DNA of 64,000 nt from assembly GCF_900240945.1 (NCBI RefSeq), contig NZ_OESG01000014.1, positions 2,696,734-2,760,733 on the forward strand. Reading direction: 5' to 3'. Made by a program: the position numbers and the translations under genes. Every line of letters begins with the position of its first letter. Position 1 is the first letter of the stretch. Of the stretch, positions 41,062 through 61,071 are shown piece after piece. Source of the DNA: Mycobacterium sp. 3519A (GTDB lineage Bacteria > Actinomycetota > Actinomycetes > Mycobacteriales > Mycobacteriaceae). A model generated the notes under the pieces. That model saw only the letters and a list, made by a program, of their open reading frames with translations, did no database searches and was not told the DNA's origin.

Positions 41062-41892
41062 TTAGCGGGCTTCGGGCACCATCCGCGCCATCACCGTGGA
41101 GAACAGGCGCTGATAGCCCGACCCGGTGAGCCGGACGATGAGGTCCAGCGCGGTGGCGTCCGGGCCGACCAGCACGCGGGCCTTGTTCTTACGGACGCCG
41201 TCGAGAATGATTCGCGCCGCCTTCTCCGGTGTGGTGTTGGCCAGCCTCTTGTCGAACGTCTCGGTCAGTTGCGTCTTGTCGACACTGTCGACGGCGGTCA
41301 TGTTGCGCACGATGTTGGTCTTGATGCCGCCGGGATGCACGGTCGTCACCTTGACCGGATGGCCGGCCAGTTGCATCTCCTGACGCAACGCTTCGGTGAA
41401 GCCGCGGACCGCGAACTTCGCCGCGTTGTAGGCGCCCTGTCCCGGCACCGAGAAGATGCCGAAGATGCTGGACACGTTGACGACGTGGCCGTCGCCCGAT
41501 GCGATCAGGTGGGGGAGGAACACCTTGGTGCCGTTGACGACGCCCCAGAAGTCGACGTCCATCACCTTCTCGATGTCCTTGAACTGGCTGACCTCGATGT
41601 CGCCCGCGAACGCGATGCCCGCGTTGTTGTAGATCTGGTTGACCTTGCCGAAGTGCTCGTTGACCGCGTCGGCATATACCGCAAACGCCTCGCGCTCGGT
41701 GACGTCGAGGCGATCGGCTTTGACCGGCGCGCCGATCGCCTTGAGCCGCTCCTCGGTAGTCGCCAGACCTTCGGTGTCGATGTCGCTGATCGCCACGCTG
41801 GCGCCCGAACGGGCCAATTCGACGGCCAGCGCCTGCCCGATGCCGGACCCGGCGCCCGTGACCACCGCGACTTTCCCGGCGAAGCCCTGCAT
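41062..41892 (-). CDS. Short-chain dehydrogenase/reductase (Rv1245c-like)
   Basis: The 276-residue SDR has the TGxxxGxG cofactor motif VVTGAGSGIGQALAVELARS, NNAGIAFAGDIE, the catalytic Ser in VNVSSIFGIFSVPGQ and the YxxxK in GAYNAAKFAVRGFTEAL. SDR members reduce or oxidise alcohols with NAD(P)H; the substrate is unknown. It converges on the ATPase gene with 9 bp between and marks the backbone border of the catabolic insertion that begins at 42.0 kb. It has a GAGGGAG ribosome-binding site. Confidence 0.88.
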   Translation of the reverse strand: MQGFAGKVAVVTGAGSGIGQALAVELARSGASVAISDIDTEGLATTEERLKAIGAPVKADRLDVTEREAFAVYADAVNEHFGKVNQIYNNAGIAFAGDIEVSQFKDIEKVMDVDFWGVVNGTKVFLPHLIASGDGHVVNVSSIFGIFSVPGQGAYNAAKFAVRGFTEALRQEMQLAGHPVKVTTVHPGGIKTNIVRNMTAVDSVDKTQLTETFDKRLANTTPEKAARIILDGVRKNKARVLVGPDATALDLIVRLTGSGYQRLFSTVMARMVPEAR

Positions 41893-42027
41893 AACGCACT
41901 CCCTCGTGTCGGTTGACTCGGCGTCGAGGCTAGTCGGTACCGCCGGTCCCGTGTACGGGGGCCTGGCAGTGGCCCGGCGTCGCGGCGAGTGGCCAGTTGT
42001 GACACGGTTCGGCGCGATTGGCGTCCA

Positions 42028-43521
42028 TCAAGTGGCCACTGGGCGGCGAATCGGCATGCTGATCAGTTTGTAGTCGAGGAACTCGTCGATGCCGACCCGG
42101 CCACCTTCGCGGCCCAGCCCGGATTCCTTCACACCGCCGAACGGCGTGGCGGGGTCGGACACGATGCCTGCGTTCAGGCCGACCATTCCGACGGCGAGAT
42201 CCTCGCTGACGTTCAAGCCGCGGTCCAGATCCTGCGTGAAGACGTAACCGACCAGACCCCACGGCGTGTCGTTCGCACGCGCCACGACGTCGTCGCTGTC
42301 GGTGAACGTTTGGATCGCGGCGACGGGCCCGAAGATCTCCGTGCTGCACATGTCGCTGCCGGGATCGACGCTCGTCAGCACGGTCGGTGGATAGAAGTAG
42401 CCGCCACCGGACGGGACCATGGCGCCGGTGACGACGTTCGCGCCGCGACCGATCGCGTCTTGCACCAGTCGGTCGACCTTGTTGCGACTGGTGGCGTCGA
42501 TCAACGGGCCCACCTCTGTCCCGTCGGTCCACCCTTCGCCCACACGCAGCGCACCCATGCGTTGCGCGAGTCGCTGCGAGAATTCGTCGACCACCTTCTC
42601 GTGAACATAGAACCGGTTGGCGCCGGTGCAGGCTTCGCCCATGTTGCGCATCTTGGCCTGCATCGCCGCGTCGACCGCGACGTCGAGGTCAGCGTCGTCG
42701 AACACGATGAACGGTGCGTTTCCGCCGAGTTCCATCGACGTCCGCACGACAGCCGAACCGCACTGCGCCAGCAGGATTTTGCCGACACCGGTGGAACCGG
42801 TGAACGACAGCTTGCGGACATCGCCGCTGCGCAGCAGCGGCTCGGTCAGTTCACCTGCCGCTGAGGTGGTGACCACGTTGAGCACCCCTGGCGGCAGGCC
42901 GGCCTCTGTCAAGATCGCGCAGAGCGCCAGCGACGACAGCGGTGTCTGTGGTGCGGGTTTGAGGACCATCGTGCAGCCGGCCGCGATCGCAGGCCCGATC
43001 TTGCGGGCCCCCATGGCCAGCGGGAAGTTCCATGGCGTGATCAACAAGCACGGCCCGACCGGACTGGCGACCACCATCGCGCGTTTTGCTCCGTCCGGCG
43101 TCCTCGCATAGCCACCATCGATGCGCACCGCCTCCTCCGAGAACCATCGCAGGAACTCGGCCGCATACCGCACTTCACCGCGTGCCTCGGCGAGCGGCTT
43201 TCCCATCTCGAGCGTCATGAGCAGCGCGAGGTCGTCCTCGCGGGCCAACACCAAATCAAAAGCGCGACGGAGGATTTCACTGCGTCGCCGCGGCGCCGTC
43301 TTCCCCCAGCCGGGTTGCGCACGCACGGCGGCGTCCAGGGCGCGTCGACCGTCGAGTGGCGACGCGTCGGCGACCGTGGTCAGTACCTCGCCCGTCGCTG
43401 GATTGTCCACCAGCATCGTCGCGCCGCCGGTCGCGTCGACCCAACTGCCGTCGATGAACAACTTCCGTGGAAACGACGCCGCGAACTCCGTGAAGCCCCC
43501 GGTCGGGATGGTGGCGGTCAT
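42028..43521 (-). CDS. Aldehyde dehydrogenase, succinate-semialdehyde dehydrogenase (GabD) type
   Basis: The 497-residue NAD(P)-dependent enzyme oxidises an aldehyde to the acid. It has PWNFPLAMGARKIGPAIAAG, the general base Glu in MELGGNAPFIVFDDADLDVA and the nucleophile Cys in MGEACTGANRFYVHEKV, and the GabD-like end PFGGVKESGLGREGGRVGID. The ATG at 43519-43521 follows AAGGAG and overlaps the flavoprotein stop by 4 bp. A semialdehyde from the island pathway is the likely substrate, but the exact one is not visible. Confidence 0.88.
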   Translation of the reverse strand: MTATIPTGGFTEFAASFPRKLFIDGSWVDATGGATMLVDNPATGEVLTTVADASPLDGRRALDAAVRAQPGWGKTAPRRRSEILRRAFDLVLAREDDLALLMTLEMGKPLAEARGEVRYAAEFLRWFSEEAVRIDGGYARTPDGAKRAMVVASPVGPCLLITPWNFPLAMGARKIGPAIAAGCTMVLKPAPQTPLSSLALCAILTEAGLPPGVLNVVTTSAAGELTEPLLRSGDVRKLSFTGSTGVGKILLAQCGSAVVRTSMELGGNAPFIVFDDADLDVAVDAAMQAKMRNMGEACTGANRFYVHEKVVDEFSQRLAQRMGALRVGEGWTDGTEVGPLIDATSRNKVDRLVQDAIGRGANVVTGAMVPSGGGYFYPPTVLTSVDPGSDMCSTEIFGPVAAIQTFTDSDDVVARANDTPWGLVGYVFTQDLDRGLNVSEDLAVGMVGLNAGIVSDPATPFGGVKESGLGREGGRVGIDEFLDYKLISMPIRRPVAT

Positions 43522-46397
43522 GGCCGAACTCCTTTGTGGTTTCGTAGCGCCCGCGCCAGCAGTTGTGCCACGTGCTGAGGTGGCGGATTGCCGTCCGGGT
43601 TGATGTGTGAGATCTGCGTCTGGCAACTGAAACCGTCGGCCGCGATCGCGACGCGGGCTGCCTCGTGTCCCAGTGCCGGCCGCAGTGCGAGATCGGCGAC
43701 GCGCATTGACACGTCGTAGTGTTCGCGCTCGAACCCGAAGTTGCCCGCCAACCCGCAGCAGCCCGTCGCTTCCTGCACCGCACGCACTCCCAGGCGGTCG
43801 AGCAACCGGCGCTGGGCGGTCGCGCCGAACACCGCGTACTCGTGGCAATGCGGTTGCAGGACCAGCTGTTCGGGAAGACGGGGCGGCCGCCAACCCTGAC
43901 CCAGACGGTCTTCGACCGCCGCTGGAAATGTCGTGACGCGGGCAGCGACCCGACGGGCGGCATCGCCGGGCACCAGTTCGGGCAGATCCTTGTGAAGCGC
44001 TGCCGCGCAACTGGGTTCGAGCACCACGATCTGCGACGGCCCTGTCGCATCGAGGATCTGCACGGTGCGCTTCAACACTCGTTTGGCGATCGACAGCTGC
44101 CCGGTGGTGATCCACGTCAGCCCGCAGCAGGCCCCGTGAACGCTGGTCAACTCGGCGCCGGCGTCGGAGAGCACGGCAGCCGCATCGGCCAGCAGCTCGG
44201 GGCGGAACGCGGAGGTGAACGTGTCGGAGAACAACACCGTGTCGTGGTGCCCGCCCCCGGCCAGGTATGGCCGCACCGCGCGCTTCGCCGCTCGCGCGCG
44301 GGAGAACTCGGGAACTGATCGTTGCGGGGTGACCCCGCCCGCCGCGGCAACGGCTTTGTGCAGCAGTTTGATCCGCGCGCCGCGGTTGATTACCGACGGC
44401 ATCAGGCCGGCGAGACGCGCCAACACCGGAAGCCACCCCAGCGAGTAGTGGCTGCGGGGCCGAATCCGACCCCGGTAGTGCTGGTACAGGAATTCGGATT
44501 TGTACGTGGCCATGTCGACGCCGACGGGGCAGTCGCTGGAACACGCCTTGCACGACAGGCACAGATCGAGCGCGTCGTGTACATCGGATGACCGCCAGCC
44601 GTCGGTGATCACCTCGCCGCGCAGCATCTCCTGTAGCGCCCTGGCCCTGCCTCGGGTGGAGTGGTTTTCGTCGTGAGTGGCGCGGTAACTCGGGCACATC
44701 ACGCCGCCGACATCGCTGCGGCAGCGCGCGATTCCCACGCATCGCTCGACGGCATCGGCGAAGCCGCCACGGTCATGGGGATAGGTGAATCCGCGCAAAG
44801 GCCCGGTGGTTTCGGCGAGCGGCAGCGGCGCCAAGTTCCCGGTGACCGGTTCCGGATCGACGATGATGCCCGGGTTGAGCAGACCGGCCGGGTCGAAGGT
44901 TTTCTTCACCGCCCCGAACAGGTCGACCATCTGCGTGCTGTACATGATCGCAAGCAGTTCGCTGCGCGATCGCCCGTCGCCGTGCTCGCCGGAAAGGGTG
45001 CCGCCATAGCGGGTGACCAACTCCGCGGCAGCGCAAGCGAATCGGCCCATCGCCGCGATGCCGGTGGGCGTGCGGAGGTCGAAGTCGATACGTACGTGGA
45101 TGCAGCCGGCACCGAAATGTCCGTACAACACCCCGGTGAGGCCGTGTTCGGCGAGCAGCTTGCGAAAGTCGCGTAGATAGCCCGGCAGTTCGGTGGCCGC
45201 GACCGCGGCGTCCTCCCAACCTGTCCACGTCTGCGTGCCGTCGGCGCGTCGGGCGGCGAGTCCCGCGCCGTCCTCGCGGACCCGCCACAGCGATGCACGG
45301 TCAGCGGCATCGGGGACGATCCGTGCGTCGGACAGCTTGCCGTTGCGTTGCAGTCGCAGGACCAATTCGTCGGCCCGCGCGGCGACCTCGCCCGCGTCCG
45401 CGCCGTCGAGATCGATGAAGAGCCAAGCGCTGCCGTCGGGCAGGCCGGTCACGGAGTCCTCACCGCGTCGTGACCGCATCGTCGCGACGATGCTCTCATC
45501 GACACCCTCCACGGCGGCAGGCGAGAACTCCAAGACGGTCGGCACGTCGTCGGCGGCGGCCACGACGTCCGGATAGCCGACAGTGACGAGTAGCGCGGCC
45601 GGGGCGGTCGGAACCAGGGCGAGGGTGGCGCCGACCACGACGGCGCACGTCCCCTCGGTACCGACCAGCATGCGGGCGACGTCGAAACCGTTCTCCGGCA
45701 ACAAATGCTGTAGTTGATAACCCGACACCTGCCGAGCGATGCGACCGAGTTCCGTTCTGATCGGTGCGAGGTTTTCGGCCGCGAGTGAGCGCAGATCGGC
45801 GTTCAGCGCCGCCGCACGCGCCAACGCCGCCGGGTCATCGGACCGCGCGGGGCGCACCCCGCCGCGGCCGGCGATCACATGACTGCCGTCGGCGAGCACC
45901 AACTCCAATTCCACGACGTGATCGACCGTGCGGCCGTGGCGCACTGAGTGATTGCCACAGGCGTCGTTGCCGATCATGCCGCCCAGCGTCGCGCGGCTGT
46001 GCGAGGACGGATCGGGACCGAATTGGAGCCCGTGCGGTCGTAGCGCGCGCTGCAGGTCGTCGAGCACCACTCCCGGTTGCACCGTCGCAGTGCGGTTGTC
46101 GACGTCGATGTGCAGCACGGCGTTCATGTGGCGCGAGAAGTCGAGCACCAGACCGCGTCCGACGGCGTTGCCGGCCATGCTGGTGCCGCCGCCGCGGGGG
46201 ACCACCGGCACGCCGTGTTCCCGGCATGCCGACAACAGCGCGATCACGTCGACTGTCCGGCGCGGATAGGCCACGCCCACCGGGGCGACCCGGTAGTGCG
46301 AGGCGTCATAGCCGTATTGCGCGCGGGCCCCCTGCCCGAAGTCGGCGGCGACGTCGAGGCGTTCGACCGCCTCACGGAGGGTGTTTCCTAATGGCAT
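43518..46397 (-). CDS. FAD-linked oxidase with 4Fe-4S and CCG domains (D-lactate / D-2-hydroxyglutarate dehydrogenase-like, YdiJ type)
   Basis: The 959-residue protein joins a PCMH-type FAD domain (VPRGGGTSMAGNAVGRGLVL near residue 68), an FAD-oxidase C domain (YGGTLSGEHGDGRSRSELL), an Fe-S part with CVGIARCRSDVGGVMCPSYR and the ferredoxin motif CLSCKACSSDCPVGVDM, and cysteine-rich CCG repeats (ACCGLTWITTGQL; GCCGLAGNFGFEREH). This is the YdiJ/GlcD-GlpC fusion layout; YdiJ members oxidise D-2-hydroxyglutarate to 2-oxoglutarate, others D-lactate. The ATG has no ribosome-binding site and lies 9 nt after TACTGT, so it is probably leaderless. Confidence 0.87.
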   Translation of the reverse strand: MPLGNTLREAVERLDVAADFGQGARAQYGYDASHYRVAPVGVAYPRRTVDVIALLSACREHGVPVVPRGGGTSMAGNAVGRGLVLDFSRHMNAVLHIDVDNRTATVQPGVVLDDLQRALRPHGLQFGPDPSSHSRATLGGMIGNDACGNHSVRHGRTVDHVVELELVLADGSHVIAGRGGVRPARSDDPAALARAAALNADLRSLAAENLAPIRTELGRIARQVSGYQLQHLLPENGFDVARMLVGTEGTCAVVVGATLALVPTAPAALLVTVGYPDVVAAADDVPTVLEFSPAAVEGVDESIVATMRSRRGEDSVTGLPDGSAWLFIDLDGADAGEVAARADELVLRLQRNGKLSDARIVPDAADRASLWRVREDGAGLAARRADGTQTWTGWEDAAVAATELPGYLRDFRKLLAEHGLTGVLYGHFGAGCIHVRIDFDLRTPTGIAAMGRFACAAAELVTRYGGTLSGEHGDGRSRSELLAIMYSTQMVDLFGAVKKTFDPAGLLNPGIIVDPEPVTGNLAPLPLAETTGPLRGFTYPHDRGGFADAVERCVGIARCRSDVGGVMCPSYRATHDENHSTRGRARALQEMLRGEVITDGWRSSDVHDALDLCLSCKACSSDCPVGVDMATYKSEFLYQHYRGRIRPRSHYSLGWLPVLARLAGLMPSVINRGARIKLLHKAVAAAGGVTPQRSVPEFSRARAAKRAVRPYLAGGGHHDTVLFSDTFTSAFRPELLADAAAVLSDAGAELTSVHGACCGLTWITTGQLSIAKRVLKRTVQILDATGPSQIVVLEPSCAAALHKDLPELVPGDAARRVAARVTTFPAAVEDRLGQGWRPPRLPEQLVLQPHCHEYAVFGATAQRRLLDRLGVRAVQEATGCCGLAGNFGFEREHYDVSMRVADLALRPALGHEAARVAIAADGFSCQTQISHINPDGNPPPQHVAQLLARALRNHKGVRP

Positions 46398-46399
46398 GA

Positions 46400-46440
46400 T
46401 TGTTCAACAGTAGAGCAGTACTGCGATTGAGCGCAATCGC
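46400..46440. promoter_or_regulatory. Divergent promoter/operator region of the GntR gene and the flavoprotein operon
   Basis: TTGTTCAACAG at 46400-46410 resembles the TNGTNNNACNA consensus of FadR/FCD-type GntR repressors and overlaps the flavoprotein -10 element (TACTGT, minus strand, 46412-46407). A perfect palindrome GCGATTG-AGCG-CAATCGC occupies 46423-46440, directly before the -10 element TATAGT (46442-46447) of the GntR gene. Both genes could be repressed from this 56-bp spacer. Confidence 0.6.
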
Positions 46441-46453
46441 CTATAGTTGGGCT

Positions 46454-47128
46454 ATGAACCCGGTCGAGAACCTCACTCTGCGTCGCACGAGCACCGCCCA
46501 GCAGGTCGCAGACGGCCTCGCTGATGCCATCATGCGCGGGGAGATGGCGCCGGGGGCCCCGATCCGTGAGAGTGCGATCGCCGCGTCGTTGGGGATCTCG
46601 CGCAACACGGTGCGTGAAGCGGTGCGCATGCTCGAGGCCAGCGGGCTGGTGCGGCACACGATGCACCACGGCGCGGCGGTGCTGGATCCGTCCCAGGAGG
46701 ATCTGACCGAGCTGTACCGCGCCCGGATGACGCTCGAACTGGCTGCCGCCGGGGTACCGCGCACCGCCGACGAACTCGCTCCGGTACGCGCGGCGCTTCA
46801 AGACCTGATGACGGCCTACGAGACGCGCGATCCGGCCGTGATCGCCGAGAAGGACATGGCGTTTCACGCCGCGATCGTCTCGATGTTGGGCAGCAAGCGA
46901 ATCGACGACTTCTACGCTCAGCTGGCGCGCGAACTGCGATTCTTTCTGCAGGTGCTTTCGCTGGAGGACCGCGAGTTCGAATCGCAGGAGGGCGTGATCG
47001 ACGAACACACGTCCATCATGGCAGCGCTGGAGTCCGGCAATCCCGAACGGGCGCAGGCGGTGCTCGAGGAGATCCTGACGGAAAGCGGCAGGCGGGTGGC
47101 GGCCATCTTCGCCGAACGGGCCTCCTGA
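46454..47128 (+). CDS. GntR-family (FCD/FadR-type) transcriptional regulator
   Basis: The 224-residue regulator has the winged helix STAQQVADGLADAIMRGEMA with IAASLGISRNTVREAVRMLE at residues 11-65, and an all-helical FCD ligand domain (RARMTLELAAAGVPRTADEL; EKDMAFHAAIVSMLGSKRID; DEHTSIMAALESGNPERAQA). TATAGT ends 6 nt before the ATG at 46454, a leaderless start. It is divergent from the flavoprotein operon and convergent with the long operon that starts at 55.3 kb, so it is placed to control both. FCD domains bind small carboxylates, often pathway intermediates. Confidence 0.9.
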   Translation: MNPVENLTLRRTSTAQQVADGLADAIMRGEMAPGAPIRESAIAASLGISRNTVREAVRMLEASGLVRHTMHHGAAVLDPSQEDLTELYRARMTLELAAAGVPRTADELAPVRAALQDLMTAYETRDPAVIAEKDMAFHAAIVSMLGSKRIDDFYAQLARELRFFLQVLSLEDREFESQEGVIDEHTSIMAALESGNPERAQAVLEEILTESGRRVAAIFAERAS

Positions 47129-47148
47129 ACGAGTCGCCGGGGTCGGGT

Positions 47149-50148
47149 TCATCGCAGCCGGTGCAGTACCCGATCCAGCGCGTCGCAGTAGATGTCGACG
47201 TGCTCTTTGCCAAAGATCATGGGCGGCTTGATCTTCAGCACGTTGTCGTGGACACCGTTGGGAAACACGATGACGCCTTCGTCCTTCATCAGCTCGGTGA
47301 CTTGGAAGGCCTCGGCCTTGGCGGGCTCCTTGGTGAAGCGGTCGCGGACGAGTTCGATTCCGAGGTAGAGCCCCTGGGCGCGCACGTCGCCGATCACCTC
47401 GTGACGCTGCTGAACCTGGGTCAGGCTGTCGCGGAAGTACGCGCCAACTTCGGCCGCGTGCTGTTGCAGGCCATCGCCGATGATGATGTCGAGCACCGTG
47501 CTGCCGATCGCGCATGACACCGGATTGCCGCCGAAGGTGTTGAAGTACTTCATTCCGGTGTCGAACGCGTCGGCGATCTCACGCGTCGTGACGACCGCGG
47601 CCAACGGGTGGCCGTTGCCCAACGGCTTGCCCATGGTCACGATGTCGGGAACAACGCCGGACAGCTCGAATCCCCAGAAGGTGTCGCCCATCCGCCCGAC
47701 ACCGACCTGCACTTCGTCGGAGATGGTCAGGGCACCGGCATCGCGCGCGGCGGTGAACACGGTGGACAGGTAGTTATCGGGCAGAACGATGTTTCCCGCT
47801 GTGCCCATGAGGGATTCGGCGATGAACGCGGCAGGCGGTCTGCCGTCGGCCACCATCGATTCGATCACCCGTGCCGCGTCTGCGCCGTATTTCCAGCCGG
47901 CGTCCGGGTCGTCGTAACCGTAGCGGCCGCGGTAGCGGTCGGGGACCGGGGTTTCATGTGTCGTCGGCGGAGCCCCCGCGCCTCCGGGGCCCTTGTAGCG
48001 GTTGGGCGAAATCCCCGTCACCACACCGGTGTTGCCATGATAGGCGCCGTCGATGATCGCGATGTCCTCGCGCCCGGTGACTTGGCGGGCGATGCGCAGA
48101 GCCAGATCGTTCGCCTCACTGCCCGTGCAGACGAGGAAGACGACCTCCAGCGGCCGTGGCAGGGTGGCGACCAGCTTCTCGGCGTAGGTCGCGATGCCCT
48201 CGTAGATGAACCGCGAGTTGGTGTTGAGTTTGTTCATCTGTCGACGCGACGCCTCGGCTACCCGCGGATCGGCGTGACCGACATGGGTGACGTTGTTGAG
48301 CGAGTCGAGGTAGGCGAATCCGTCTTCGTCGTACAACCAGACACCGCGGCCGCGTTGCAGATTCATGGGTGCGCGGTAGTAGGCCCGCTGCGAGCTGGCA
48401 AGTCGGTTGCGGCGGATGCTCAGTACATCCGCGACCCGCAACGCCGGTGGCTGCGCACCGGGGAGGCCCAGCAGCGTCGAGGGATCGGGTGACAACTCGG
48501 CGTACACATCGGCCTCACTGGGCCTGATTCGCGTCGGCCAGCCGGTGCCGTTGCGGTGCCGCCGCGGCAACGAGATGTTGACGGCGACAGCGGTTCCCAT
48601 ACCGTCGACGGCTGCCCCGGCCGCACTCCCGAGCGAATGGCCGGCGGCGATGTATCCCGCGTCGGTGTATCCCGAGAGGCCGTGCCAGTGCACGAAGAAG
48701 TCAAGCGGGCCGTCCGAGTCGGTCACGGCGTGGTGCACGGTGAGGCAGGGTTGCGTGGACACCACCCTGCCGTCCAGCGGGTTGGCGAAGGTCTCGTCCT
48801 TGCCTACCAGCAGCTGGACCCCGAGGGTCGTGGTGGCTGGTTCGGCAGCGCCGACACCGCGCCGCGCCGACCACAGCAGATTCGGCCTCAGATGCCTGAT
48901 CACGCCGACGGTTTGGCTTCTGTCACCGAGGATCGACGCCACCGCGCTGCCGACAGCGGCTGGGTCATGCCAATCGATGACGTCGAAGAGGTCGCTCGCG
49001 GTCGACGTGTCGATCACCTGCAGTTGCCGCGACTGGGTGGACCAGCGCGCCGGTGTCATTGATTCCAACACCCGCTCGAGGCGTGCGCTGTCCGGGTGGG
49101 CGGGTCGTCCGCACGCGCACCGCAGGGCCGCCTCGGCGTAGTCTGGATCGATGCGCGCCACTTTGGCCAGCGCCGGCCAGGTGTGACGCATCCGCTTGGC
49201 GCCGTGCGAGTTGTGGGAGACAGCGGCGCGCTGGGTCCACGTCACGGCGTTCATCGCCAGCCGCGCAGCGGCCAACGGGAACACCGCTGCCAGCTCGTCG
49301 TCGGTCAACGGCGTTATCGAGTTGAAGCCGGCCACAACGAGTTTCGCGACGTGCAGCGGATCGTCCTTGCGGATCAGGGCGTAGCCGGTGGCCACCGCTA
49401 GTTCGGCAACGCGCACCGTGTAAAGCGCATCGCCGAGGTCCAATACGCCGCTGATGCTCTGCCTGCCAGACGGATCGCGATCAACCAGCACGTTGGAATC
49501 GTTGAGGTCCTGGTGGGCCACGCCGCGCGGCAGCCGATCCAGCAGTGTTGAGATGGTGTCGAACCAGGACATGACCACGTCGACATCGGCGCGGTGTTGC
49601 GGGTCGGCCACCGCGTCGATGCCGGCGTCGATCATCTCGCGGGCCCGGCGCATGTCCCAGTCGTGGGTGATGTGTTCGTCGGGTGCGGGCATCGAGGCCA
49701 GCGCGGCGGAGATGCGGGCAGCGACCTCGCCGAGTTCGGTCAGCAGTTCGTCGGAGTGTTGTTCCGCCTCGGCCAGCGGCGCACCGGCCAGCCAGGACAT
49801 CACGCGAATCATTCTCTCGCCCTGGCTGGTTGGTGTGATCACGTGCAGACAGCCATCGGTTGCCGGGATCAGCCGCGGCAGCGGAACGTCGGGGGCGGTG
49901 TCGCCGAGGTGTAGCAGGATTCGCTCGTGCCAGGCGGCGGTCGCGGCATCGGTGTCGAACAGTGCGGAGATCTTGACCAGATAGTGGCGGCCCGCGTTGT
50001 CGGTCACGCGCAGGTTCTGGTCGAACTCACCACCCAGTGACAGCGGGTCGGTGACCGTGAGCCCGAATTCGGCGTGCACCAAGCGGAGCACCTCATTGTG
50101 GTCGAGTGGTCGCGCCTCTCGTACGTCGACGACGCCGTCGGCTGACAT
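47149..50148 (-). CDS. Three-part fusion: APH-type kinase, central domain, class III aminotransferase/phospho-lyase
   Basis: The 999-residue protein begins with an aminoglycoside-phosphotransferase-like kinase (catalytic HQDLNDSN at residues 212-219, DLGD at 237-240). Then comes a middle region (about 370-560) that resembles the M23-peptidase-like domain annotated in such fusions. It ends with a class III PLP enzyme (about 570-999; EVVFLVCTGSEANDLALRIA, AIIDGAYHGNTGVV and TMGKPLGNGHP with PLP Lys near residue 841). Relatives are hydroxylysine kinase plus phosphohydroxylysine or phosphoethanolamine phospho-lyase (AGXT2L), so one protein may phosphorylate an amino alcohol and then eliminate phosphate and ammonia to give an aldehyde. 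The substrate is inferred only. It is the last gene of its operon. Confidence 0.86.
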   Translation of the reverse strand: MSADGVVDVREARPLDHNEVLRLVHAEFGLTVTDPLSLGGEFDQNLRVTDNAGRHYLVKISALFDTDAATAAWHERILLHLGDTAPDVPLPRLIPATDGCLHVITPTSQGERMIRVMSWLAGAPLAEAEQHSDELLTELGEVAARISAALASMPAPDEHITHDWDMRRAREMIDAGIDAVADPQHRADVDVVMSWFDTISTLLDRLPRGVAHQDLNDSNVLVDRDPSGRQSISGVLDLGDALYTVRVAELAVATGYALIRKDDPLHVAKLVVAGFNSITPLTDDELAAVFPLAAARLAMNAVTWTQRAAVSHNSHGAKRMRHTWPALAKVARIDPDYAEAALRCACGRPAHPDSARLERVLESMTPARWSTQSRQLQVIDTSTASDLFDVIDWHDPAAVGSAVASILGDRSQTVGVIRHLRPNLLWSARRGVGAAEPATTTLGVQLLVGKDETFANPLDGRVVSTQPCLTVHHAVTDSDGPLDFFVHWHGLSGYTDAGYIAAGHSLGSAAGAAVDGMGTAVAVNISLPRRHRNGTGWPTRIRPSEADVYAELSPDPSTLLGLPGAQPPALRVADVLSIRRNRLASSQRAYYRAPMNLQRGRGVWLYDEDGFAYLDSLNNVTHVGHADPRVAEASRRQMNKLNTNSRFIYEGIATYAEKLVATLPRPLEVVFLVCTGSEANDLALRIARQVTGREDIAIIDGAYHGNTGVVTGISPNRYKGPGGAGAPPTTHETPVPDRYRGRYGYDDPDAGWKYGADAARVIESMVADGRPPAAFIAESLMGTAGNIVLPDNYLSTVFTAARDAGALTISDEVQVGVGRMGDTFWGFELSGVVPDIVTMGKPLGNGHPLAAVVTTREIADAFDTGMKYFNTFGGNPVSCAIGSTVLDIIIGDGLQQHAAEVGAYFRDSLTQVQQRHEVIGDVRAQGLYLGIELVRDRFTKEPAKAEAFQVTELMKDEGVIVFPNGVHDNVLKIKPPMIFGKEHVDIYCDALDRVLHRLR

Positions 50149-50192
50149 GTATGTGTTTTCCCTTCGAGTTCAATGCTTTGGGCCGCAGTTCG

Positions 50193-51680
50193 TCAGGCGA
50201 CGCGGTCGCCCAACGTCGATCCCAGCTGTGCATAGCGTTGCGGCGAGCGAGCTTTGATGATGTAGGCACCGACGATGCCGATGGCCAGCGACGCGAACAG
50301 CATGGCGGTGAACGTGACCTGCAACCAGCCGCCCGCGCCGAGTAACACATCCATCCCGGTCAGCGCGTAGTACAGGAACGGCAGCAGGCCCGCGATTCCG
50401 AGTAGGGGCGCGATGAAGGTGTTCCACGGCCGTTTGTCGACATTCGACCGGCGGAAGAACACGAAGATCGCGATGCTCGCGATGGTCTGCAGCATGATGA
50501 TGGCCGCGGCCCCGACGCCGGTCCACCAGGTGAACAGCGTCGCATAGGGGTCCAGGTTCAAGACGGCGAAGATCACGACAACGATCGCAACCATGGCGGT
50601 CTGCACGTAGCAGGCGGTCACCGGCGACTTGCGCGTCGGATGGGTGTGACCCAGCCGCGACCACAGCAGGCCTTGGCGGCCAAGGGAGTACAGATAGCGC
50701 GCCACGTTGTTGTGGAAGGTCAGGATCGCGGCGAACAGGCTGGTGATGATCAGCAGTTGGAACGCTTCGGTGCCTGCGCGGCCGAGCACGTCGTCGCTGA
50801 CCTTGAAGACCAGGTCGCCGGATTCGGTTTGGGCCACGTTGACGGCGTTGTCGACACCGACGGCGTTGATGATCAGCCAGGCCGTGATCGCGTAGAAGAC
50901 ACCCATGAAGATGACCGCTGTGTAGGTGGCGCGCGGCACGGTGCGTTTGGGGTCCTTGGCTTCCTCGCCGTAGATCGCTGTCCCTTCGAAACCGATGAAC
51001 GAGGCGTGGGCGAACATCAGTGCCACGCCGATCGCGCCGGCGAAGACGGCGGAAGGAGCGAAGGGCTCAAAGGAATAGTGGCTCACCGGCGTCGGCCCCG
51101 CGATCAAGATGCCGATGTCGAGGATCAGGATGATCGACGTCTCCAGGGTCAGCAGCACGGCGAGCACCTGCGCCCCGGCGTGGATCTGTCGGACTCCGAG
51201 GAACAACGCCGCTGCCATCGCGAACGCGCTGAAGACCCACCAGGGCACGGCGGCACCGAAGTGTGAGTGCACGAACTCTGCCGAGTAGAACCCGAATCCG
51301 CCGATGACGCCGAGCTGGATGGCGTTGTAGCCGAAGATTGCCAGCGATGCAGAGCCCAGGCCCAATGGTCTGCCGAGCCCTTTGGTGACATACGCGTAGA
51401 ACGCGCCGGTGTTGGTGATGTGCTTGCTCATCGCGACGTAACCGACGGCGAACACGGTGAGCACCAAGGCGACCAGAATGAAGGTTCCGGCGATGCCGAT
51501 ACCGTTGCCTGACCCGATGATCACCGGATACAGCGCGACGACGACGGTCAGCGGGGCGGCCGCAGCCACCACGAAGAACACGATGCCGAGGACGCCAACC
51601 TGGTTGCGCGCCAATGACTCATGGCCGTCGGGAGAGACTTTTGCAGCTGCCAACTTCTGCGGATCTTCCTGGTGGAGCAT
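50193..51680 (-). CDS. APC-family amino acid/amine permease
   Basis: The 495-residue membrane protein has about twelve helices and the APC start NQVGVLGIVFFVVAAAAPLT with the unwound substrate loop of helix 1, then GAFYAYVTKGLGRPLGLGSA and FIGFEGTAIYGEEAKDPKRT in helix 6. It should import an amine or amino acid in symport. It lies between the PYROXD2-like and the kinase-aminotransferase genes (45 bp before the latter), so it probably brings in the substrate of that enzyme. Confidence 0.87.
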   Translation of the reverse strand: MLHQEDPQKLAAAKVSPDGHESLARNQVGVLGIVFFVVAAAAPLTVVVALYPVIIGSGNGIGIAGTFILVALVLTVFAVGYVAMSKHITNTGAFYAYVTKGLGRPLGLGSASLAIFGYNAIQLGVIGGFGFYSAEFVHSHFGAAVPWWVFSAFAMAAALFLGVRQIHAGAQVLAVLLTLETSIILILDIGILIAGPTPVSHYSFEPFAPSAVFAGAIGVALMFAHASFIGFEGTAIYGEEAKDPKRTVPRATYTAVIFMGVFYAITAWLIINAVGVDNAVNVAQTESGDLVFKVSDDVLGRAGTEAFQLLIITSLFAAILTFHNNVARYLYSLGRQGLLWSRLGHTHPTRKSPVTACYVQTAMVAIVVVIFAVLNLDPYATLFTWWTGVGAAAIIMLQTIASIAIFVFFRRSNVDKRPWNTFIAPLLGIAGLLPFLYYALTGMDVLLGAGGWLQVTFTAMLFASLAIGIVGAYIIKARSPQRYAQLGSTLGDRVA

Positions 51681-51733
51681 GGTGGTCCTTTCAGCAACGC
51701 CGGAGTGATGGGTGGTTGTGGGTTGTCGCGGCG

Positions 51734-53479
51734 TCAGTGCGCGCGGCCGTTCTTGGCGCTCTCGCTGCGCGCGGCGAACTTGACGATCTTTCGGAAGGCG
51801 GGCTTTGTCGCGACGGTGTAGCCGAGTTTCTTGCCCGCCTTGGTGTCCATCACGGTGTCCAACACCCGATCGATCACCCCGGACCGCGGGGAGCCTGTCA
51901 CGCTGCGTAGCGGCGTCGGCGCGGCGGTGCCGTTGAGGTCGGCGATCACCACCTTGGCGGCATTGTGCCCACTGGCGCCCATCACCCCTCCGCCGGGATG
52001 CGTGCCGGAACCACAGAGGTAGTAGCCTGTGACCGGGGTGCGGTAATCGGCGAGTTCCGGAGTTGGCCTACTGGAGAACAATTGGTCGAAGAACATCGCG
52101 CCGTGGAAGATGTTGCCTCCGGTCAGGCCGTAGTCGCGTTCGAGGTCCTTGGGCGTGATGATGACGCGTTCCAGGATGTGCTCACGCAGGTTGGGTGCGT
52201 AGCGGAAGAGCACCTCCAGCACGCGATCGGCCCATTCATCGCGGATGGTGTCCCAGTCCGTTCCGGCCAGCTCGAATGGAAGTTGTTGCACGCCAAGTGT
52301 CATGGTGTGCTTCCCTGGTGGCGCGAGCGTTTCGTCGTGAGTGGATTGGATGACGGCCTCGATGACGAAGTCGTCGGGGATCTGACCGCGCCGCTCGGCT
52401 TCCCAAGCCTTCTCGAAGTTTTCGATCGATGCCCCGAGGATTGCCTGCGCCTGGTGTTGCGGTCCGGCGACACCGGCCGGGAAGCCGATGTAGTCGGGGA
52501 GTTCGTCGATGAGCAGATGGATGCGGGCCATCGAACCGCGCGCGTCGTAGTTCTGCAGTTTGGTGGTGAGCTTTTCGTCGAGCGTGCCTGCGGGCAGCAG
52601 CGTCAGCATCGAGCGTTGCGGGTCAGCGTTGGAGATCACCGTGCGCGCGGAGATCGTCTCGCCGCTCTCCAGCACCACGCCGGTGGCTTTCCCCCCGCGG
52701 ATCACTACCTCTCGCACCGGGGCGTTGAGACGGATCTCGGCGCCGTGGGCCTCGGCGCTGCGGGCCAGCGCCTGAGTGATACCGCCCATCCCACCCTTGA
52801 CGAATCCCCACTGGCCAAGTGTGCCTTTGAATTCGCCCACCGAGTGATGGCCGTAGACGTAACCGGTGCCGGGCGTCGACGGCCCACCCCAAATCGAGAT
52901 CATCCCGAAGAAGGTGAACAAACCCTTGATGTGTTCGGAATCGAAGTAGCGGTCGAGAAGATCCTTGGTGGACAGCAGGACCAGCTCGTTGAACAGGTCC
53001 TCGGCCCCGGCGGCTTCGAATGCCGCCACCACTTCCGAACGGCTGGGAGCGGGCGACAGCAGGAAGGGCGTCAGGATGGACGCGAATTTCTTCAGCCGCA
53101 GCCCGAATTCGAGGAATGCCTCCGCGTCGGTTTTGGAGAACTTCGCGATCTCCTTCAGGGTGCGGTCCATGTCCTTCCACATGAACAGGTGGCTGCCGTC
53201 GGGGAAGATGCTGACCTCGTTGGCCTCGGTCTGATACATCTGCAGCCCGTACCGTTCCAATTCGAGCTCGGCGATGATTTCCGGGCGCAGCAGGCTTGCG
53301 ATGAACGCACAGGACGACCACGTGGAGTCGGGGATCAACTGCTCGCTGGTGCAGGCGCCTCCGACGACGTCGCGGGCTTCGACGACCAACACTTTCTTGC
53401 CTGCCCTGGCGAGATAGCCTGCGGTGATCAAACCGTTGTGGCCGGCTCCGATGATGACGGCGTCGAAGGTGGTGGTCAT
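51734..53479 (-). CDS. PYROXD2 / phytoene-dehydrogenase-like FAD oxidoreductase
   Basis: The 581-residue flavoprotein opens with FDAVIIGAGHNGLITAGYLA and KVLVVEARDVVGGACTSEQL, the FAD-binding motif of the CrtI/PYROXD2 group, and closes with GYYLCGSGTHPGGGVMGASG, the second FAD contact. The substrate is unknown; a carotenoid role is not supported because no other carotenoid genes are near. The ATG at 53477-53479 overlaps the HapK-like stop by 4 bp. It may oxidise an amine or intermediate in the island pathway. Confidence 0.85.
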   Translation of the reverse strand: MTTTFDAVIIGAGHNGLITAGYLARAGKKVLVVEARDVVGGACTSEQLIPDSTWSSCAFIASLLRPEIIAELELERYGLQMYQTEANEVSIFPDGSHLFMWKDMDRTLKEIAKFSKTDAEAFLEFGLRLKKFASILTPFLLSPAPSRSEVVAAFEAAGAEDLFNELVLLSTKDLLDRYFDSEHIKGLFTFFGMISIWGGPSTPGTGYVYGHHSVGEFKGTLGQWGFVKGGMGGITQALARSAEAHGAEIRLNAPVREVVIRGGKATGVVLESGETISARTVISNADPQRSMLTLLPAGTLDEKLTTKLQNYDARGSMARIHLLIDELPDYIGFPAGVAGPQHQAQAILGASIENFEKAWEAERRGQIPDDFVIEAVIQSTHDETLAPPGKHTMTLGVQQLPFELAGTDWDTIRDEWADRVLEVLFRYAPNLREHILERVIITPKDLERDYGLTGGNIFHGAMFFDQLFSSRPTPELADYRTPVTGYYLCGSGTHPGGGVMGASGHNAAKVVIADLNGTAAPTPLRSVTGSPRSGVIDRVLDTVMDTKAGKKLGYTVATKPAFRKIVKFAARSESAKNGRAH

Positions 53480-53820
53480 TGCGGGTCTCCAGTGATCGGG
53501 CGGGCGAAATAGGTGCGAACCGAGGCCGGGTCGACGAGCTTGTTGAAACCCTCCATCACCGGCTCCATTGACGGGTGGTTGTCGCGGATTTTTACCCAGG
53601 CGGACCAGTCGGTGACGTGCATGACTTCGAGGATGTCGGCCGGTGCATCGTCGGGTGCCTCGGCCACGCGGTAGGCGTCGAATCCGGTGACCACGTCGCT
53701 GTGGCCCAGGCAGGTCGGGCGATCGACGGTGTTGGAGAAGTGCTCGAACTCGGCGGGGTCGACACCGGGTCGCATCGAGAACAGGTTGATCGCGAACACC
53801 GATCGGTCCGGCGGTGGCAT
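53476..53820 (-). CDS. RedY/HapK-like small protein (dimeric alpha-beta barrel type)
   Basis: The 114-residue protein reads SVFAINLFSMRPGVDPAEFE, then DVVTGFDAYRVAEAP and ADILEVMHVTDWSAWVKIRD, the pattern of REDY-like HapK proteins, related to ferredoxin-fold alpha-beta barrels. In prodigiosin-type clusters RedY/HapK helps a redox or condensation step; here it may assist the adjacent flavoprotein, to which it is translationally coupled. It is 51 bp after the aldehyde dehydrogenase. Confidence 0.65.
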   Translation of the reverse strand: MPPPDRSVFAINLFSMRPGVDPAEFEHFSNTVDRPTCLGHSDVVTGFDAYRVAEAPDDAPADILEVMHVTDWSAWVKIRDNHPSMEPVMEGFNKLVDPASVRTYFARPITGDPQ

Positions 53821-53871
53821 GTGTTGGTCTCCAGAGTGTCCGAAGTTGTTGCGAAGAAAAGTTTTTCGGTG

Positions 53872-55305
53872 TCAGCCGACCAGGTTGATCATCACGTGTT
53901 TGATCTCGGTGTATTCCTCGAGTGAGTAGATCGACATGTCGTTGCCGTGGCCGGACTGCTTGAAGCCGCCGTGCGGCATCTCGGCGACGATCGGGAGATG
54001 ATCGTTGATCCACACCGTGCCGAACTGCAGCTTGCGGGCCGCTCTCATGGCTCGCGACACGTCTTTGGTGAAAACCGAAGCGGCAAGGCCGTATTCGACA
54101 TCGTTGGCCCAACCGAAGGCCTGCTCTTCGGTGCTGAATCGGGTCGTGGTCACCACGGGACCGAACACCTCTTTCTGCACGATCTCGGAATCTTGCGGCG
54201 CGTCGACCACAAGCGACGGCTTGTACCAGAAGCCGGGGCCGGACGCTGGTCCGCCGACGGTCAGCGACGCCGGTCCCGATGCGGTGGCGCGTTCGACGAA
54301 TCCGGTGACCCGCTGCAGGTGCTTCTCCGATATGACCGGGCCCATTTCCGTTGATTCATTCGCCGGCTGGCCCATCGCGACCTTGGACACCGCGCGGGTG
54401 AGCTCCGTGACGAACTCGTCGTAGATGCCGTCGGCGACGTACACGCGGGATGCGGCCATGCAGTCTTGTCCCGAGTTCCCGTAACCGCCCTCGCAGATCT
54501 TGCTGATCGCCAGTTCGGCGTCGCAGTCGTCGAACACCAGCACCGGGGCCTTACCGCCCAACTCGAGGTGCAGGCGCTTGAGGTTCTCGGCGCCGGCGCG
54601 CGCGACGACCTTGCCGGTGATGGTGTCACCGGTCAAGGAGGACATCCGCACCCGCGGGTGGGAGACCAGCGCCTGCCCGACGGTGTCGCCGTGCCCAGTC
54701 ACCACGTTGAACACGCCCGGCGGGAACAGGTCGGCTGCGAGTTCGGCGAGCCGCAGGGTGGTCAGCGGGGTCTGCTCGCTGGGTTTGAGCACCAGGGTGT
54801 TGCCGGTCATCAGCGCCGGACAGATCTTCCAGATCGCCATCAGCAGTGGGAAATTCCACGGCGCGACACTGCCGATGACGCCGAGAGGGTCTCGACGAAT
54901 GATGCTCGTGTGGGTGGGGGAGTACTCACCGGCGGCACGGCCCTCGAGCACGCGCGCCGCACCGGCGAAGAAACGCATGTTGTCGACGCCGAATGGAATC
55001 TCCTCGCGGGCCACCGTGATCGGCTTTCCGACGTTGGCCGATTCCAGCTGGGCGAATTCCTCGGCGTGGTCGGCGAGCCGGTCGGCCAGCTTCAGTAGCA
55101 GCTCGGCTCGCTGCGCAGGGGTGGTTTCCGACCAGCTGTCGAACGCCTTCTCCGCAGCGTCGACGGCGCGCTGGACGTCGGCCGCGCCTCCGAGCGGCAC
55201 AGTGGCGATTTGCGCCGCGGTGGCCGGATCGATCACAGGCTCCGTCGCCCCGTCGGCAGCACCGATGTGCTCCCCGTCGACGTACATCAACTGCGTATCG
55301 GCCAT
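53872..55305 (-). CDS. Aldehyde dehydrogenase, aminobutyraldehyde/betaine-aldehyde dehydrogenase type
   Basis: The 477-residue enzyme carries PWNFPLLMAIWKICPALMTG, the Glu of LELGGKAPVLVFDDCDAELA and the nucleophile in GNSGQDCMAASRVYVADGIY, and the end EMPHGGFKQSGHGNDMSIYS typical of gamma-aminobutyraldehyde (PatD/YdcW-like) dehydrogenases. The ATG at 55303-55305 has a GGGAG ribosome-binding site; 19 further in-frame codons upstream are promoter sequence. It is the first gene of the operon running to 47149 and has the TTGTTSAACAG motif 40 bp upstream. Confidence 0.87.
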   Translation of the reverse strand: MADTQLMYVDGEHIGAADGATEPVIDPATAAQIATVPLGGAADVQRAVDAAEKAFDSWSETTPAQRAELLLKLADRLADHAEEFAQLESANVGKPITVAREEIPFGVDNMRFFAGAARVLEGRAAGEYSPTHTSIIRRDPLGVIGSVAPWNFPLLMAIWKICPALMTGNTLVLKPSEQTPLTTLRLAELAADLFPPGVFNVVTGHGDTVGQALVSHPRVRMSSLTGDTITGKVVARAGAENLKRLHLELGGKAPVLVFDDCDAELAISKICEGGYGNSGQDCMAASRVYVADGIYDEFVTELTRAVSKVAMGQPANESTEMGPVISEKHLQRVTGFVERATASGPASLTVGGPASGPGFWYKPSLVVDAPQDSEIVQKEVFGPVVTTTRFSTEEQAFGWANDVEYGLAASVFTKDVSRAMRAARKLQFGTVWINDHLPIVAEMPHGGFKQSGHGNDMSIYSLEEYTEIKHVMINLVG

Positions 55306-55338
55306 TCGGCACTCCCTGGTCGGTTCGGTAGTCGAGGT

Positions 55339-55355
55339 GTTCAATTGTTGAACAG
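55339..55355. promoter_or_regulatory. Probable GntR operator upstream of the aldehyde dehydrogenase operon
   Basis: TTGTTGAACAG at 55345-55355 matches the site at 46400-46410 in ten of eleven positions and differs only in the central base, which strand choice inverts. It overlaps a perfect palindrome GTTCAA-TTG-TTGAAC at 55339-55353. It lies between the divergent aldehyde dehydrogenase and phosphoesterase genes and could control both. Confidence 0.55.
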
Positions 55356-55502
55356 TTGACATGAAGAGCTAAACACAGAGCGGTCCGGGCCGCAACAGGA
55401 AGATGTCAGCCAATGTTTCCCAGCGGTTTGACTGCGCGGACGGGGATTCCCAGGGCGGTGCGGCAGCATCCACGGGTGCCCAGAAACGCAGTGCCAGGAG
55501 AC

Positions 55503-57173: not shown

Positions 57174-57190
57174 CTCGCGAACACGAGCTA

Positions 57191-60100: not shown

Positions 60101-60913
60101 GCCAGGGTTGGTCAGCGAGATCGTCACGCCGGAGAAGTCCTCGGCGGTCAGCTTGCCGTCGCGGGCACGCCGGACAATGTCCTCGTAGCCGGCAATGAAC
60201 TGGCCGAATTGCATCGTCTCGCAGCCCTTTATGGCAGCGACGACGAGTTGCCGGTTGCCGTCCTTGCCCTGCAGGTCGATCGCGAGGCCGAGGTTGACGT
60301 GCTCGGGCGTTACCGCATTCGGTTTGCCGTCCACCTCGGCGAAGTGGCGGTTCATGTTCGGGAACTTCTTGACCGCCTGCACCAGCGCGTAACCGATCAG
60401 GTGGGTGAACGAGATCTTGCCGCCGCGGGTGCGCTTGAGGTGGTTGTTGATGACGATCCGGTTGTCGATCATCAGCTTGGCCGGGATGGCCCGCACGCTG
60501 GTGGCGGTCGGCACCTCGAGCGACGCCGACATGTTCTTCACTACCGCGGCGGCGGCGCCGCGCAGCACCTGCGTCTCCTCGCCTTCGGCGGGCGCAGGGG
60601 CGGGGGCCTTCGGTTTCGCCGCGGGCTTCGCGGGCTCCGGTGCCTTGGCGGGCGCGGCGGCCACGCCATTGCTGGTGTCTGCTTTGGGCGGAGGCGCGGG
60701 GGCGGGCTCCGGCGGCGCGACCGGTGCGGCGGCGGACACCTGGGCCGGTTGGCCGTTCCCGGTCGGCGGTTTCGGTTCGGTAGTTGGCTCGGGCGAGTAG
60801 TCGACTAGAAATTCATGCCAACTCGGGTCTACCGACGAGGGATCCTCGCGAAACTTGCGATACATCTCCTCGACCAACCACTCGTTCTGTCCGAATGGTG
60901 ATGGTGAGCTCAC
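57191..60913 (-). CDS. kgd: Multifunctional 2-oxoglutarate metabolism enzyme (alpha-ketoglutarate decarboxylase / dehydrogenase E1-E2)
   Basis: The 1240-residue protein starts with [20 protein letters not shown], a Pro/Ala linker, an E2-like acyltransferase domain with HxxxD ([16 protein letters not shown], His near residue 323), and a ThDP-dependent E1 domain ([60 protein letters not shown]). It joins 2-oxoglutarate decarboxylation to succinyl-CoA formation in the TCA cycle and is inhibited by GarA in mycobacteria. I chose GTG 60911-60913 from similarity to the M. tuberculosis start; an ATG at 60967 adds 18 residues. Confidence 0.95.
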
Positions 60914-61071
60914 GGCAGCTACTCGCCTCGATTCCTTCGCCTCAGGCAAGCGGTTCACGCTCGCCACCGATATTCGCGCGGTCGACGGGGATTACCCGTG
61001 TGACCGCCGCCTAAAGGCTAACGCTTCCCGATTATCCCCAGCAGGCCAAACCACCCGAACGGCAGTTCTCC

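Follow-up and report, generated by a model that had tools for sequence, protein, structure and literature searches.

A candidate GntR-regulated gene island next to kgd in a mycobacterium, predicted to degrade a hydroxylated amine

A mycobacterial genome of 7.3 Mb (the host is assigned by the names of matching proteins) carries, next to the kgd gene, an island that appears to be a self-contained catabolic module under the control of a GntR-family regulator. In the window, that is, the whole 64,000-nucleotide stretch of DNA that was analysed, nine genes lie between a short-chain dehydrogenase/reductase (SDR) gene (41062-41892), which, partly by its position, we regard as Rv1245c-like, and kgd (57191-60967), in an insert of approximately 41893-57190. 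We assign a probability of roughly 55% to the reading that this module serves a beta-hydroxylated amine, probably one with four carbons (C4), the substrate being predicted from the gene content. The island is proposed to encode a kinase-phospholyase route, the carbon of which would feed central metabolism. An earlier reading of this DNA (the sequence-only reading) gave the coordinates and directions of the genes correctly but counted eight, having omitted the metallophosphoesterase gene. The features are as follows.

42028-43521, minus strand: GabD-like semialdehyde dehydrogenase (GabD), 497 residues; PF00171
43518-46397, minus strand: GlcD-GlcF-type fused 2-hydroxyacid dehydrogenase (GlcDF) of the flavin adenine dinucleotide (FAD)/Fe-S kind, 959 residues; PF01565, PF02913, PF13183, PF02754
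46399-46411: predicted operator 1, ATTGTTCAACAGT, between the GntR gene and the GlcDF start
46442-46447, plus strand: TATAGT, a possible -10 box judged from the sequence
46454-47128, plus strand: GntR/FCD-family regulator; PF00392, PF07729
47149-50148, minus strand: kinase/beta-domain/phospholyase fusion, 999 residues; PF01636 and PF00202
49102-50112, minus strand: kinase domain of the fusion, residues 13-349
48559-48831, minus strand: middle beta domain of the fusion, residues 440-530, without a Pfam match
47161-48432, minus strand: predicted pyridoxal phosphate (PLP) phospholyase domain of the fusion, residues 573-996
50193-51680, minus strand: APC-family amine/amino acid permease; PF13520
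51734-53479, minus strand: PYROXD2-like FAD oxidoreductase, 581 residues; PF01593
53476-53820, minus strand: HapK/RedY-like small protein; PF11639, 24.5 bits
53872-55305, minus strand: aldehyde dehydrogenase (ALDH1) of the gamma-aminobutyraldehyde-dehydrogenase subfamily; NF010000
55344-55356: predicted operator 2, ATTGTTGAACAGT, in the ALDH1 promoter
55413-57173, plus strand: twin-arginine (TAT)-signal metallophosphoesterase; PF00149, PF10518

A predicted operator at both operon promoters

The promoters of the two operons share a near-palindrome, ATTGTTCAACAGT in front of GlcDF and ATTGTTGAACAGT in front of ALDH1. The pattern ATTGTTSAACAGT (S at the centre) occurs at exactly two sites in the whole genome, which are these two promoters, a count that is partly circular because the pattern was derived from those sites; with one mismatch allowed, there are six sites, compared with three for the reversed pattern. 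Operators of GntR-FCD regulators often take the form GT-N3-AC, and the island sites fit that form. The four one-mismatch sites beyond the two promoters all fall within frames of a simple gene caller and were rejected as operators, as was a third matrix match that recurs inside the PYROXD2 gene and was read as coding sequence.

Conservation across species is the stronger evidence that the two operons form one regulon. In Mycolicibacterium sp. P9-64 (see below), the identical string is found upstream of ALDH1 and between GntR and GlcDF. A matrix built solely from the sites of the window and of P9-64 was run on seven variant loci of the genus, in which the GntR protein is 45-52% identical to that of the island. 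The 150 bases upstream of ALDH1 contained a site of at least 20.7 bits in all seven, whereas only one of 791 control windows drawn from those loci did, and the ALDH1-promoter score was reached by 0 to 2 of 1000 approximate dinucleotide shuffles. In the GntR-kinase intergenic region, the best site scored 16.1-20.7 bits in all six readable variant loci (0 to 4 of 500 shuffles scored as high, and 5 of the 791 control windows attained 16.1 bits). Being related, the seven genomes do not amount to seven independent events. One operator type is present at both promoters in eight of the nine mycobacterial loci, the ninth being interrupted by a contig end. The single GntR regulon proposed in the sequence-only reading is thus supported, because the operator recurs at the ALDH1 promoter in all seven variant loci and in P9-64; that both operons belong to one GntR regulon is well supported by comparative analysis, and GntR would bind the predicted operators.

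Operator 1 starts two bases upstream of the start codon of GlcDF. TATAGT lies upstream of the ATG at 46454, which was chosen as the GntR start, and the GntR transcript may be leaderless.

Enzyme families and the predicted route

The closest PDB matches of the PLP domain are the human ethanolamine-phosphate phospho-lyase (6tor, 411 bits, 47% identity) and the phospholyase 5g4i (323 bits), followed by dialkylglycine decarboxylase with 201 bits; one type B (split-set) and one rhizobial PLP enzyme, from the related sets described below, are also nearer to phospholyases than to transaminases. By these matches the class III domain belongs with the phospholyases (ETNPPL/A1RDF1 clade), closer than to transaminases, and lyase activity is predicted; of the kinase/aminotransferase fusion named in the sequence-only reading, the kinase stands and the aminotransferase does not. 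Lys841 and the motif GKPLGNGHP are unchanged across eight fusions. The HxD..N signature is the catalytic motif of APH-fold kinases, and both the fold and this motif are found in the kinase domain, as in APH-fold amino alcohol kinases; structure comparison of residues 10-347 shows a predicted fold resembling aminopropanol kinase, and the N-terminal part gave no match to PDB sequences at E≤0.001. The model of the middle beta domain has eight strands (block means 68-88), and residues 430-545 gave no Pfam match at E≤1. By eye, this domain resembles a degenerate LytM/M23- or biotinyl-like domain and might hold or gate the phosphorylated intermediate. The mean predicted local distance difference test (pLDDT) score of the fusion model is 62.5, with the PLP region poorly modelled, and no claim is based on the shape of that region.

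ALDH1 scores 702.6 bits with NF010000, above the cut-off of 615 for the aminobutyraldehyde dehydrogenase subfamily, and 599 bits with the equivalog TIGR03374, under its cut-off of 909; its PDB matches are 4dal, 1wnb and 6c43. The best PDB match of GabD is E. coli GabD (3jz4, 490 bits), and the alignment shows Arg173, Arg292 and Ser455 along with Cys298, the first three forming the Arg/Arg/Ser substrate carboxylate triad of succinate- and malic-semialdehyde dehydrogenases (PMC11353897). For GlcDF the best PDB match is D-lactate dehydrogenase 8jdc, and a PADLOC scan of this protein returned nothing; the label YdiJ-type given to it earlier was overstated, since the YdiJ model NF049975, though the best NCBIfam match, scores 463.9 bits against a cut-off of 1350. 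The HapK-like protein falls just under the gathering score of 25 for PF11639, and 15 of the 51 protein clusters listed as its relatives carry this domain in precomputed form; its frame and that of PYROXD2 overlap by 4 bp.

PYROXD2, a CrtI-like enzyme, belongs to a large family: of 8,000 candidates scored, 6,748 proteins reach E≤1e-100, and many of the 120 relatives listed are named phytoene desaturase or dehydrogenase. To our knowledge, the substrate of human PYROXD2 is unsettled. A relative with 39% identity adjoins an aminomethyltransferase gene, with Rieske-type genes near (Fuscovulum, Shinella), and one with 52% identity lies among sugar-type genes in Mesorhizobium. An amine role for PYROXD2 is suggested by its Pfam match to amine oxidoreductases, by genomic context and by human genetics, one report linking the human gene to methylated amines (PMC13355647).

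In the proposed route, the APC permease would import the hydroxylated amine, PYROXD2, with HapK as partner, would oxidise an amine carbon to give an omega-amino-aldehyde, and ALDH1 would convert the latter to an omega-amino-beta-hydroxy acid. The kinase domain would phosphorylate the beta-hydroxyl, the one next to the amine carbon, and the phospholyase domain would then eliminate phosphate and ammonia to form a dicarboxylic semialdehyde. GabD would oxidise this to a dicarboxylate, and GlcDF would turn the 2-hydroxy product into a keto acid. For a C4 substrate with one hydroxyl, 4-amino-3-hydroxybutyrate would yield succinic semialdehyde and then succinate; with two hydroxyls, 4-amino-2,3-dihydroxybutyrate would lead via malic semialdehyde to D-malate and oxaloacetate, a branch that would give a task to GlcDF and to the tartrate dehydrogenase of the rhizobial sets. 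A cyclic precursor such as hydroxypyrrolidine would suit the action of PYROXD2 and then of an aminobutyraldehyde-type enzyme, and a polyhydroxylated precursor would match the sugar-type transporter found in the rhizobial sets. A more specific scheme is tentative, and we would not bet on it. In this scheme, an undescribed pathway would degrade small iminosugars or hydroxylated amines of the C4 kind (for instance 3,4-dihydroxypyrrolidine or 2-hydroxyputrescine); PYROXD2-HapK would make the amino-aldehyde, and the fused kinase-phospholyase would remove the nitrogen to give malic or succinic semialdehyde. Mycobacteria and rhizobia might each have put the pathway together on their own, with last enzymes that are unrelated: GlcDF of the FAD/Fe-S kind in the former and a nicotinamide adenine dinucleotide (NAD)-dependent tartrate/D-malate dehydrogenase in the latter.

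The sequence-only reading had suggested ethanolamine, among others, as the substrate. Its idea of a kinase and a phospholyase that release aldehyde, ammonia and phosphate survives as a prediction from sequence, whereas ethanolamine itself is weakened: it explains neither the aminobutyraldehyde-type ALDH1, nor PYROXD2, nor the succinate-semialdehyde dehydrogenase (SSADH)-type triad, and the permease matches the ethanolamine permease model only weakly (37.7 bits, cut-off 381.75). More generally, a simple amino alcohol (ethanolamine or 1-amino-2-propanol) could be converted to acetaldehyde or propanal and oxidised by ALDH1, the other genes being accessory, and the island would resemble a mycobacterial RMM locus without a shell. 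The relationship of the PLP domain to the human ethanolamine-phosphate enzyme and the aminopropanol kinase-like fold speak for this reading, as do a GntR, permease, phosphotransferase and aminotransferase that are RMM genes too (PMC4207490, PMC6620236); we nevertheless consider it unlikely, given the subfamily of ALDH1, the carboxylate triad of GabD, a PYROXD2 left without a role, and a separate RMM2-like locus in the same genome, 1.3 Mb away (L160 849-16254), with shell proteins, a UTRA-type GntR, an SDR, its own APH kinase, class III enzymes, a permease and a diol dehydratase.

Hydroxylysine kinase and phosphohydroxylysine phospholyase follow the same kinase/phospholyase logic, and a hydroxylysine pathway is the other candidate of this kind: 5-hydroxylysine would be phosphorylated, cleaved to 2-aminoadipate semialdehyde and oxidised, the C5/C6 acids passing via D-2-hydroxyglutarate to 2-oxoglutarate by GlcDF, which is related to D-2-hydroxyglutarate dehydrogenases. 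We regard it as quite unlikely: the set contains no alpha-aminotransferase, ALDH1 and GabD look aminobutyraldehyde- and SSADH-type, PYROXD2 again has no role, and the rhizobial version ends in a tartrate dehydrogenase.

Related gene sets and the site next to kgd

When 84,980 species genomes were scanned for the fusion, 38 loci emerged, several of them on contigs cut by their ends. Among these, P9-64 (fusion 73% identical) is the sole genome in which the mycobacterial set is complete, with its gene order unchanged. Two Pseudonocardia loci, identical over 22.9 kb and so counted as one observation, have APC, fusion, ALDH1, HapK, PYROXD2, GlcDF and GabD in one co-directional row; this single cluster bears out the earlier suggestion that both operons form one unit. 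Streptomyces iranensis has the first five of these genes without GlcDF and GabD. Separate occurrence of the operons, which the sequence-only reading had named as evidence against it, is therefore seen in part, in S. iranensis and in the decayed copy described below, which keeps only GlcDF intact. No motif like the predicted operator stands out in a matrix scan of the Pseudonocardia and S. iranensis loci or of three more distant loci of the mycobacterial genus (below), and in Pseudonocardia a divergent PucR-type gene lies inside the row instead.

No close copy of the fusion is present in the other 147 genomes of the genus (35-39% identity over the full length, at most 48% for the C-terminal part alone), and in many of them the class III relatives are all weaker ones. 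Seven of the 147, the variant genomes of the operator analysis, have a PYROXD2 of 85-87% identity. These retain ALDH1, HapK, PYROXD2 and APC at 65-88% and have, in place of the fusion, two separate proteins, a kinase with 26-30% identity in six genomes and a PLP enzyme with 38-40% in six and 41% in G135; GabD is found in all seven and GlcDF in six. In G135 the set is split between two contigs, and there is a stop in the GlcDF frame. The comparison thus points to a set of functions that is kept while the genes for two steps are exchanged.

Wider surveys with HapK (E≤1e-8; only the window genome matched among 396 genomes of the phylum) and PYROXD2 (E≤1e-150; 3 of 394 genomes of the class, all of the same genus) were thin and left out known carriers. 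Among plasmids, 27 records match PYROXD2, all below 60%, and relatives of 53-55% lead to two rhizobial records. The blocks on plasmids of Rhizobium sp. CIAT894 and Agrobacterium tumefaciens, 84% identical as DNA and counted as one case, comprise a LysR gene and genes for an aldehyde dehydrogenase at 51%, a kinase at 29-30% and a PLP enzyme at 39% (at 55-57% when compared with the type B enzyme), as well as an ABC transporter of the sugar type, a protein of 144 residues and PYROXD2, with tartrate dehydrogenase and gabD divergently placed; the ends of the block are the same in both, and the genes beyond are unlike. The Rhizobium block lies amid methylamine-type genes (dimethylamine monooxygenase, GlnT, a glutamate synthase-like gene, sarcosine oxidase; L136 22792-25680, L155 3920-10301), which do not surround the block in the Agrobacterium stretches examined. 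That related sets recur in other actinobacteria and on plasmids of rhizobia suggests a real functional unit. Titles and abstract openings returned by full-text searches of the open-licence literature contained no account of the gene set.

Several observations weigh against the proposed pathway. Of the 38 fusion or PLP-domain loci, 34 have no PYROXD2/HapK/ALDH1 set beside them at the threshold used, and one variant genome (G084) lacks GlcDF in the locus. GabD is under both NCBIfam SSADH cut-offs (566.5 and 531.6 bits against 646 and 828). Three loci of the genus (L090, L091, L092) combine an ALDH/HapK/PYROXD2 trio of 62% identity with an APC permease and have no kinase or lyase in 20 kb; all three carry an IlvD-type dehydratase, and two, those where a candidate gene was scanned, a P450. 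Finally, a gamma-glutamyltranspeptidase gene, for which the scheme has no use, follows the module in Pseudonocardia (L055 20804-22717) and S. iranensis (L066 16600-18387) and may mean an amide precursor. A different substrate class is possible. The starts of the neighbouring proteins in the three trio loci resemble meta-cleavage lower-pathway enzymes.

The insertion site was compared in 20 of 40 other genomes of the genus (39 of the 40 matched the Kgd C-terminus), over 1.1-6.7 kb next to kgd. All 20 have the SDR gene (76-84% identity) no further than about 0.1-2.6 kb from kgd, and the island proteins and metallophosphoesterase gave no match beside kgd at E≤1e-8 in any; relative to these genomes, the island is therefore an insertion. 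The sequence-only reading held that the genes have no counterpart at this place in M. tuberculosis and that a small toxin-antitoxin pair sits there instead; the lack of a counterpart holds for all 20, the one exception being a decayed remnant in G066, a genome found separately by a GlcDF protein search over 146 genomes. There, between the same borders (SDR 96%, Kgd 99%), the locus (L148 7238-15189) has an intact GlcDF frame (94% identical), GabD in fragments, the tail of the metallophosphoesterase gene and the exact operator within 34 identical bases; window positions 46426-57070 and 42174-43270, along with two stretches of about 80 bases, have no counterpart. The simplest reading of this alignment would be that a common ancestor already had the island and that G066 is now losing it. 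Between the two GlcDF genes, nonsynonymous divergence (dN) is 0.035 and synonymous divergence (dS) 0.219 (dN/dS about 0.16), a low ratio that may only reflect the time before the deletion. G+C content is not distinctive (65.9% in the island, 66.0% and 66.6% in the flanks), and no tRNA was found in the window.

A functional tie to Kgd, suggested earlier through 2-oxoglutarate supplied to the neighbouring enzyme, was rejected: no kgd is present in 23 kb of P9-64 or in the seven variant loci (13-20 kb), and all 20 genomes sampled have an empty site. Arguably, the island might consist of two or more unrelated cassettes for different substrates (PYROXD2/HapK/ALDH1/APC versus kinase/lyase/GlcDF/GabD) that share a regulator only through joint insertion. 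That each is found elsewhere without the other, and that GlcDF alone survives in the decayed G066 copy at the low dN/dS, would fit; the joint occurrence in actinobacteria and rhizobia under differing gene orders, transporters and regulators, together with an operator type common to the two promoters in eight of the nine mycobacterial loci, makes this improbable. The metallophosphoesterase gene is placed in the same insert, with no evidence in the gene data for membership of the pathway; a search of 20 other genomes gave relatives with 79% identity in two, at a distance of about 0.5 Mb from kgd.

If the tentative scheme for C4 amines or iminosugars is right, the PYROXD2 family, many members of which bear phytoene desaturase or dehydrogenase names, would gain a bacterial role in amine oxidation; the island points towards amine chemistry for this large FAD family. 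With the pathway predicted in full and an operator predicted too, the hunt for the substrate narrows to a small set of growth and induction tests. The kinase-phospholyase step appears to be joined to differing upstream chemistry in different bacteria.

Comparison with known systems

The closest analogue is the RMM/Aut microcompartment locus, for which 1-amino-2-propanol is reported as inducer in mycobacteria and rhodococci (PMC4207490, PMC6620236). The island shares with it a GntR, an amino acid permease, an APH-fold phosphotransferase, a class III enzyme and an aldehyde dehydrogenase, but lacks shell proteins and the short-chain dehydrogenase, has the kinase and lyase fused, and adds PYROXD2, HapK, GabD and GlcDF. 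No bacterial microcompartment (BMC) shell domain was found in the nine scanned island proteins, and the PF00936 matches of the genome lie elsewhere on its contig. The RMM2-like locus is without the operator core, its GntR is UTRA-type as opposed to the FCD-type of the island, and it contains an additional class III gene that shares 54% identity with the type B phospholyase. The island follows a similar principle without being an RMM locus.

In animals, ethanolamine-phosphate and phosphohydroxylysine phospho-lyases are reportedly found with a hydroxylysine kinase (Veiga-da-Cunha 2012). The logic of kinase plus lyase is alike, and the island differs in the fused lyase, the extra beta domain and the partner genes. 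The APH-aminotransferase fusions PRK06148 and PRK06149 have the same domain order over the full length, with the island fusion under both cut-offs (844 and 759 bits versus 1128 and 973), as it is for subfamily NF004799.

The L-carnitine degradation of A. baumannii, with malic semialdehyde dehydrogenase (MSA-DH) and D-malate dehydrogenase, employs a semialdehyde dehydrogenase with the Arg/Arg/Ser triad followed by a 2-hydroxyacid dehydrogenase, as in the island, and the rhizobial block likewise pairs SSADH with tartrate dehydrogenase. Unlike the carnitine route, the island has no Rieske carnitine monooxygenase, nitrogen would leave via the kinase and phospholyase, and the mycobacterial 2-hydroxyacid enzyme is of the FAD/Fe-S kind. 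Puu putrescine catabolism resembles the island in its APC permease, FAD-dependent amine oxidation, aminoaldehyde dehydrogenase and semialdehyde dehydrogenase; the island differs in having no gamma-glutamyl ligase and in the predicted replacement of the transaminase by a kinase and phospholyase.

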